Assembly (NCBI GenBank): GCA_026004795.1
Contig: BPJV01000003.1
Coordinates: 62,001 to 126,000 of the forward strand
Length of the DNA: 64,000 nt
Direction of reading: 5' to 3'
From: Pirellulaceae bacterium
Lineage (GTDB): Bacteria > Planctomycetota > Planctomycetia > Pirellulales > Pirellulaceae
Part shown: positions 48,823-50,209 of the stretch, one piece after another
Numbering within the stretch: position 1 is the first letter of the stretch
How the letters are laid out: the number at the start of each line of letters is the position of its first letter
Notes under the pieces: model-generated
Seen by the model: only the letters and a program-made list of their open reading frames with translations
The model's database searches: none
Told to the model about the DNA's origin: nothing
Program-made: the position numbers and the translations under genes

Positions 48823-49584
48823 ATGGTTACCTGGATCGACAAGAAACGATTGCGTCAGCAGGTGTTGGCAGGAACCTTTCTGAACTTAGGCTCGCCGACC
48901 GCCGTGGAAATCGCGGCTGGACTTGGTTTCGATTGGTTGTTGATCGACCTGGAGCACGGTTCTGGATCGTGGGGAGACTTGCGTTCGTTGCTGCTGGCCT
49001 GTCATGGCGCCTCCTGTTCCCCCATTGTCCGCATCCGGTCGATTGATCCTGATGTAGTGAAGTTCGTGCTCGATAGCGGTGCAGCCGGCATCATGTTCCC
49101 TTTCGTCAGTACGGCGGAAGCGGCCCAAGCGGCGGTGCAGGCCTGCAAGTACCCTCCCTGGGGCAATCGCGGCGTGGCGCATGTGATTCGTGCGACCGAT
49201 TATGGGGGGAACTGGCGATCGTACTTCGAAACCGCCAATGAAAACGGGCTGGTGGTGGTGCAGATCGAAACCCCCGAGGGGGTGAACAATGCCGAAGAGA
49301 TCGCTGCGATCGACGGGGTCGATGTGCTGTTTGTCGGACCGCTGGACCTCTCGGTGAACCTGGGATGTCCCGGCGATTTTTCCTCCTCACCGTTCACTCA
49401 GTCCCTGCGGCAGGTGATCGACGCCGCCGAAAAACACCAGAAAGCAGCGGGGATTCTTTCCCGCCCCGAGGGTATCGACCACCACCGCGAAATGGGCTTT
49501 CGGTTCCTCGCCTTGGGATCGGATGCCGGTGCGGTTCGAGCGGGCCTAGCCGAGGCGCTCCACCGCATCCGTGGCCCGAGGTGA
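48823..49584 (+). CDS. HpcH/HpaI aldolase family protein
   Basis: A 253-aa TIM-barrel class II (metal-dependent) aldolase of the HpcH/HpaI family, which cleaves 2-keto-3-deoxy acids to pyruvate and an aldehyde. Seen: the opening GTFLNLGSPTAVEIAAGLGF, DWLLIDLEHG, the metal-ligand region QIETPEGVNNAEEI, and VGPLDLSVNLG. The ATG at 48823 follows AAAGAAGAA; a GTG at 48808 is possible. It lies 61 bp upstream of the selenoprotein gene. Confidence 0.92.
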   Translation: MVTWIDKKRLRQQVLAGTFLNLGSPTAVEIAAGLGFDWLLIDLEHGSGSWGDLRSLLLACHGASCSPIVRIRSIDPDVVKFVLDSGAAGIMFPFVSTAEAAQAAVQACKYPPWGNRGVAHVIRATDYGGNWRSYFETANENGLVVVQIETPEGVNNAEEIAAIDGVDVLFVGPLDLSVNLGCPGDFSSSPFTQSLRQVIDAAEKHQKAAGILSRPEGIDHHREMGFRFLALGSDAGAVRAGLAEALHRIRGPR

Positions 49585-49645
49585 ATCGATGCGGCACGCT
49601 TGGGAAACTCGCCTACACCCCGATAGAAAACTCGGAGCTATCCCC

Positions 49646-50209
49646 ATGACCCTCAATTTAACCGGAAAACCCGCCCCGCGAGTCGATTTAGTTGATCTCC
49701 ACGGAACCGTGCACTCCATTCCAGGCACAGACCAGACGTGGAAGCTATTGGTATTCCATCGCCATCTCGGGTGACCGACTTGCCGCTATCACGTGACGCA
49801 GTTGCGTCGCGCCGAAAACGAACTCAACCGGGTCGGCTTGAAAGTCTTCGTCATCACGTTCGACGATAGCGTCTTGGCGCGGAATTACGTCGCTTCGACG
49901 GGATTGCCCTGGCCCCTGTTGATCGATCGGCAACGGCAGGCCTACCGGGCGTACGGGATGGAACGGGCCAGTTGGTGGCAACTTTACCATCCAGGTTCTC
50001 TACTCCGTTACCTAAAACTGCTCGCCCTAGGACAACGACCAGGCAGGCCAGGAGAGGATTGGCATCAACTGGGAGGCGACGTGCTCATTGATCCCCAAGG
50101 AATCGTGCGTTTGCATCACGTCAGCCAGGATCCACACGACCGACCTTCGGTAGACCAGATTCTCGCGGCCCTGAAGAAGACTGAACAAGCCTCCTCCCAG
50201 GGGAATTGA
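49646..50209 (+). CDS. Probable selenoprotein: peroxiredoxin-like AhpC-TSA_2 / SelU-like protein (TGA at codon 43 read as Sec)
   Basis: Read through the in-frame TGA at 49772-49774, this is a 187-aa thioredoxin-fold protein from the ATG at 49646 (GGAG 8 bases upstream). Before the TGA is LLVFHRHLG; after it PTCRYHVTQLRRAENEL, the same reading frame. In the AhpC-TSA_2 (PRXL2/FAM213, selenoprotein U-related) family this point is the first Cys of CxxC (pattern RHFGCPFCR), so the product has Sec43-Pro-Thr-Cys46. Downstream family marks are YGMERASWWQLYHPGSLLRY, QLGGDVLIDPQG and DPHDRPSVDQIL. A SECIS-like hairpin follows. A gene finder would report two fragments. The alternative is a nonsense mutation or sequencing error. 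A thiol redox or peroxide role is expected from the family. Confidence 0.82.
49772..49774 (+). other. In-frame TGA, probable selenocysteine codon
   Basis: Codon 43 of the peroxiredoxin-like gene, between GGG (Gly) and CCG (Pro). It aligns with the conserved first cysteine of the family's CxxC motif. Confidence 0.8.
49792..49811 (+). promoter_or_regulatory. Putative bacterial SECIS element
   Basis: An 8-bp stem CGTGACGC/GCGTCGCG (one U-G pair) closes the 4-nt loop AGTT, which has a G followed by U near its top. The loop lies about 26 nt after the TGA, within the 16-37 nt spacing described for bacterial SECIS hairpins, which bind SelB. The stem is part of the coding sequence. Confidence 0.65.

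Follow-up and report, generated by a model that had tools for sequence, protein, structure and literature searches.

The locus raises the question whether an in-frame TGA in a short gene of a Pirellulaceae bacterium terminates translation or is read as selenocysteine (Sec). The gene is located in the window, i.e. the complete 64,000-nucleotide stretch of DNA analysed here, and its features are compiled in Table 1. With the TGA read as a residue, a single frame is obtained (MTLNLTGKPAPR...HRHLGUPTCRYH...QASSQGN, 187 aa and a terminal TGA), of which codon 43, in the context HRHLG-U-PTC, is the sole internal stop. The preliminary description had proposed one protein split by a single in-frame TGA and equipped with a good start, and both points were borne out, the ATG being preceded by GGAG at 8 nt. 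The third-position GC content is alike on both sides of the TGA (0.60 before, 0.65 after). We assign a probability of roughly 0.96 to the reading that the gene encodes a selenoprotein in which the TGA at the active site is translated as Sec; the insertion is deduced from the position of this codon, the Sec pathway encoded in the genome and a hairpin kept by compensatory changes.

Table 1. Coordinates of the predicted selenoprotein gene and its elements within the window.
Feature	Position	Strand	Details
Predicted selenoprotein gene, SelL-related/PRXL2-like redox protein	49646..50209	+	187 aa, Sec at residue 43; stop TGA 50207-50209
Shine-Dalgarno-like GGAG	49634..49637	+	8 nt upstream of ATG, read directly
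Putative Sec-UGA codon	49772..49774	+	First position of UxxC (GUPTC) redox motif
Cys46 codon TGC	49781..49783	+	Second (resolving) Cys of UxxC
Bacterial SECIS-type stem-loop	49792..49811	+	8 bp, loop AGUU, loop from 25 nt after UGA, -12.6 kcal/mol

A crude scan for an in-frame TGA beside a Cys/Thr motif yielded 39 such places in the 64 kb of the window; by itself, the motif is therefore no evidence for a selenoprotein. The genomic surroundings, an HpcH/HpaI aldolase gene upstream and a protein kinase/RDD gene downstream, are uninformative on the function of the gene. No recurrent informative neighbour genes were detected among ORFs of at least 90 aa around the window gene and 77 related loci; the biggest neighbour cluster, with 23 loci, consisted of a spurious antisense frame and was dropped, and the only other one reaching at least five loci encodes a flavoprotein, judged by eye (5 loci). 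No tRNA or Rfam family match at gathering score was obtained within positions 1-64000.

The joined protein matches three family models above their cut-offs, which supports the earlier view that the two parts are halves of one AhpC-TSA_2-like protein. Pfam AhpC-TSA_2 (PF13911; 55.6 bits, cut-off 27) covers residues 52-160 and thus only the part past the TGA, while Pfam AhpC-TSA (54.6 bits, cut-off 26; residues 7-155) and the NCBIfam model NF040769 for a SelL-related redox protein (170.1 bits, cut-off 120; residues 9-175) both span the codon. The amino acid sequence identity to the three first-aligned relatives is 53, 50 and 36%. The TxxU motif of typical Sec peroxiredoxins (Prx/Bcp) is absent, as the protein carries GUPTC with Sec in first position, and the UxxU diselenide motif of animal SelL is likewise missing. 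Among 19 AhpC-TSA matches in the organism's own genome, the gene studied here is the only one with an internal TGA.

The position of the TGA is shared widely among relatives. When 392 genomes of the phylum were searched with NF040769, 42 TGA-bearing places, the window included, reached the 77 bits to which the count is confined, and in every one of them the codon occupies the same position of the motif. A second scan, of the genome_contigs collection of named genomes, was run with a four-row alignment (A2), the single protein as query having yielded no relative in it. Here the best 80 of 81 relatives were kept, and codon 43 corresponds to U in 77 and to Cys in three of them. Of the two scan patterns of A2, one demands Cys where the window protein has Sec, and FHRH, the other, precedes this position; since FHRH was derived from Sec forms, the share of Sec among the 80 applies to the FHRH clade rather than to the family at large. 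Two of the 77 U loci, L151 and L185, apparently represent the genes L012 and L014 again. According to their record titles, the 77 U loci belong to Planctomycetota (28), Acidobacteriota (16), Thermodesulfobacteriota (13), Actinomycetota (7), Pseudomonadota (4), Myxococcota (4), Verrucomicrobiota (1) and Hydrogenedentota (1), with three unranked. The recurrence at one motif position in 42/42 phylum places and in 77 of the best 80 of 81 loci argues against chance, in agreement with the initial judgement that a random nonsense mutation would rarely hit this codon. Homologues thus place Cys or Sec at the TGA codon in both sets, as is expected of a bacterial selenoprotein, and the former claim that the TGA replaces the first Cys of CxxC while the second is kept proved correct, residue 46 being encoded by TGC.

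A quick tree of 138 rows was calculated with the catalytic column masked, leaving out L012, L014, genome_contigs rows shorter than 130 aa and, out of 28 Cys loci, five that were near-copies or, in two cases, divergent. The Sec/Cys states require 8 changes on this tree, compared to 24 in shuffles. The window protein was grouped with Planctomycetota Sec forms on branches with less than 95% support, and the smallest starred clade holding it contains 65 U and one C among 66 rows. Seven genomes of the window's own family harbor the Cys form on other branches of the tree (six on one, L030 elsewhere), which was counted against the selenoprotein reading. Variation was also seen within the motif of Sec forms. 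A Planctomycetaceae relative (L171:4085-4096) has ULPU, i.e. UxxU, the diselenide-type motif tied by name to animal SelL, and the second Cys is missing in L097, L100, L076, L078 and L087 (UxxF, UxxA, UxxS), which shows that some members of the family do without the resolving residue. In another genome of the phylum (L038:1501-1824), an in-frame TGA was observed in a Bcp-like peroxiredoxin with the sequence TPGUT (TxxU motif), which is likely a second kind of selenoprotein in that genome.

Besides a UGA where homologues have Cys or Sec, tRNA-Sec, SelA, SelB and SelD in the same genome mark a bacterial selenoprotein. All four, named in the preliminary description as the check to be made, were found in the assembly to which the window belongs (5.59 Mb in 17 contigs, 96.8% complete). 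SelA was matched with 402.7 bits (2.3e-120; the same search matched 2/14 control genomes) and the C-terminal wing of SelB with 66.6 bits (9.5e-18; 1/14 controls), the frame of the latter being uninterrupted (652 aa) with GHIDHGKT near its start. SelD reached 238.9 bits (cut-off 125) and is a Cys form by eye. The tRNA-Sec scored 77.9 bits against an Rfam gathering score of 47 and was also called by ARAGORN, with anticodon TCA; the cut-off alone is not strict, since the family search exceeded it in 5/14 control genomes. SelD forms the C-terminal part of a 772-aa frame (L101:3154-5472, contig C8 of the same genome), which adjoins selA with a 22-nt frame overlap; both genes apparently constitute an operon. 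The N-terminal part of this frame resembles NADH dehydrogenase by eye (Ndh-SelD-like); such Ndh-SelD fusions are described in PMC2398784.

Across the phylum, a strong SelA match (1e-80 or better, a threshold fixed after the values had been seen) was found in 38/40 genomes with a TGA form compared to 8/38 with stop-free forms only (Fisher 6e-12, a value that is only indicative because the genomes are related). With a threshold of 1e-60 instead, the stop-free genomes G121 and G339 would count as having SelA. The figure of 38 stop-free genomes was taken from the NF040769 match table, the Cys being read in part of them. The SelA match was missing in two genomes with a TGA form, G214 (67% complete, L021) and G264 (91%, L083), and this was counted against the reading; both cases would be accounted for by gaps in the assembly or by a contig of foreign origin.

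Downstream of the TGA, a hairpin is predicted that resembles a bacterial SECIS element. The limits given for such elements in a figure legend of PMC13188914 are a loop of 3-9 nt with a G in the first two bases, a stem of 4-16 bp, a distance of 16-37 nt after the UGA and at most -7.5 kcal/mol, and the hairpin of the window, with its 4-nt loop and the values in Table 1, lies within all of them. The loop of the best hairpin is found at 25 nt likewise in 64/74 Sec loci from named genomes, these being the 77 without L199, L201 and L203, whose matches break or end just past the motif. With a simple hairpin finder, the energy limit was passed by 59/74 genome_contigs Sec loci, 26/42 phylum Sec loci and 3/28 Cys loci (those fetched, a subset of the Cys forms); the 15/74 and 16/42 Sec loci that missed it were counted against the reading. 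Compared to synonymous recodings, hairpins were more stable in the 42 Sec genes (-9.0 vs -5.7 kcal/mol, p 3e-7) and not in the 28 Cys homologues (-2.5 vs -2.7 kcal/mol, p 0.80), the p-values being too strong because the sequences counted are related. Folded alone, the window stretch was not clearly better than shuffles (MFE z-scores of -0.63, -1.78 and -1.05).

Covariation was evaluated for nine pairs in an alignment of 75 rows with 74 distinct Sec-type sequences. The score was 0.418 compared to 0.144 in shuffled alignments, none of 500 shuffles being as high, and the best slid version reached 0.218; alignment columns 24-37 and 25-36 are among the covarying pairs. In the same alignment, 72.8% of the cells were paired and 108 cells were changed on both sides (41 in shuffles); the number of pairs changed on both sides was reached by 31/500 shuffles and that of pair types by 2/500. 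In a set of 13 phylum sequences the score was 0.313 compared to 0.186 shuffled, and two of five measures were within the shuffles (pairs changed on both sides, 106/500; pair types, 352/500). The outermost of the nine pairs is unpaired in 70/74 sequences and probably lies outside the SECIS element. A bias is also visible in the codons: Gln-Leu at U+9/U+10 is written CAG TTG in 13/13 phylum Sec genes (counted without the Gln-Val Sec loci L014, L082 and L088) compared to 2/14 Cys genes, which points to a constraint on the RNA beyond the protein, and CAGTTG (CAGUUG in the RNA) occupies the SECIS core in 66/74 Sec loci of named genomes.

Three other explanations for the TGA have to be weighed. The gene could encode an ordinary Cys-type protein whose catalytic codon was hit by a nonsense mutation, leaving a pseudogene, or was wrongly sequenced. 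This would fit the Cys forms of a related protein in the seven genomes of the same family, but it is hardly credible given that the same codon recurs in 77 of 80 loci from other assemblies and in 41 further phylum places, that the open frame shows conservation, with 36-54% identity to 29 relatives, and that a SECIS element with covariation is located 3' of the TGA. Comparably improbable is a regulated stop, with the UGA mainly terminating and the downstream part being made from an internal start (GTG 49793). A downstream ORF of 138 aa is indeed present, yet neither the motif nor strands one to three of the structural model would be included in its product, and conservation shows the region 5' of the TGA to belong to the same domain.

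The UGA might also be read through without selenium, by another residue or general suppression. We regard this as very unlikely too, if marginally less so than the two preceding explanations, because the ordinary aldolase gene immediately upstream ends at TGA (49582-49584), the Sec machinery is present in the genome, the TGA forms track SelA across the phylum, and the hairpin accompanies them. Translation of the codon as Sec is therefore the preferred reading.

A search of the organism's own genome, conducted family by family, revealed no second selenoprotein among the families covered. The five matches to PF00384 have no stop within the matched part, the single match to PF10262 (SelW-like) is a Cys form with CTQC, and PF02627 gave no match. 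With a covariance model derived from 43 of the other 74 Sec sequences and not from the window, the window ranked first in the genome (45.7 bits), a rank that is not evidence for a SECIS element by itself because such a model captures conservation of the coding sequence as well. The next hit (22.1 bits) was rejected, as its frame is open without TGA over the 120 codons read, and three further weak hits read out of 30 others listed gave no candidate. A molybdopterin gene (NapA-like by eye) with an apparent frame change was noticed on contig C8 (L105, near 1500), with the Fe-S part in one frame and the remainder in another; it appears to be a frameshift error or a broken gene.

A structure was predicted with AlphaFold2 from 30 aligned members with the TGA read as Cys. 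The model has a mean pLDDT of 91.7, and residue 43 is located directly before a helix (44-55). Its top PDB match is 9usa, human prostamide/PGF synthase (TM 0.74/0.84), an entry whose title names a C44S/C47S mutant and whose protein we take to be PRXL2B/FAM213B. A weak sequence alignment to 9us9_A (E 0.019; residues 38-177 to 39-181) places Sec43 about at C44. With the 30-member profile, a Bcp-type peroxiredoxin and ResA scored above PGF synthase. The fold match and the profile scores together suggest a selenolate-based oxidoreductase of the thioredoxin fold with Cys46 as putative resolving residue. The product is likely a selenol/thiol oxidoreductase of this fold, acting as peroxidase or disulfide reductase. 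In the proposed mechanism, SelB loaded with Sec-tRNA would bind the hairpin and decode the UGA as Sec. By analogy to the chemistry of the family, Sec43, just before the helix, might then serve as attacking selenolate and reduce an oxidised substrate, either a peroxide or a disulfide/sulfenate; Sec43 and Cys46 would form a selenenylsulfide, which a thioredoxin-like donor may recycle. The overall role would be that of a PRXL2/SelL-type selenol-thiol oxidoreductase.

Membership in AhpC-TSA_2/PRXL2 (SelU) is indicated by PF13911 and by 9usa as top structural match. The initial assignment as SelU/PRXL2-like holds for the fold, while the name under which the family is curated is SelL-related redox protein and not SelU; the human enzyme, with the C44/C47 pair named in the title of 9usa, is alike in fold and differs by using Cys, by an identity of only 19% and by being outscored in the profile comparison. 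In eukaryotic SelU, the SECIS element is located in the 3'-UTR. Animal SelL is linked to the window protein by family name and to the clade by the motif of L171; the window protein has UxxC. Shchedrina reportedly described the UxxU diselenide of animal SelL in 2007.

Similar bacterial proteins have been reported before. Prx-like selenoproteins with UxxC are among the known families in the 2005 Sargasso Sea paper (PMC1088965) and are listed for Geobacter, Syntrophus and Desulfotalea in a 2006 study (PMC1794560). Reviews mention UxxC/UxxU for a Prx-like thiol:disulfide oxidoreductase and UxxS for an AhpC-TSA_2 protein (PMC9312934, PMC13188914). The gene had been presented as a new selenoprotein; it is new as an instance and not as a kind, since Prx-like selenoproteins with UxxC had been published by 2005 and the named model NF040769, which other TGA forms of the phylum match too, covers it. 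The likeness to the printed Prx-like UxxC proteins (PMC1088965, PMC1794560, PMC9312934) consists in distant Prx homology and the UxxC motif. Geobacter and Desulfotalea are listed there, and the window's clade has members from Geobacter and Desulfobulbaceae; likened by description, its family is likely the Prx-like thiol:disulfide oxidoreductase (reference Geobacter WP_010940744.1). The AhpC-TSA_2/cd02970 selenoprotein tabulated in the reviews (PMC9312934, PMC13188914) shares PF13911 and has UxxS, in contrast to UxxC in the window. Planctomycete selenoproteins were reported in 2016 (PMC4807772). Among the titles and opening parts of abstracts listed, none described this gene in a planctomycete as SelL-related, SelU or PRXL2.

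If every UGA is annotated as a stop, the gene is truncated to a fragment, and the redox enzyme readily escapes notice in this genome as well as in relatives among Planctomycetota, Acidobacteriota and Thermodesulfobacteriota. As a tentative proposal, to which we give rather low odds, the cross-phylum FHRHLGUxPCR clade might use Sec almost obligately, with a nearly invariant SECIS core CAGUUG, and the gene of the window might be the main or only reason why this organism keeps its Sec apparatus. The clade represents a compact test system with a SECIS element rich in compensatory changes, and in it a single fold, which is related to SelL and human prostaglandin F synthase, occurs naturally with Sec, Cys or UxxU.
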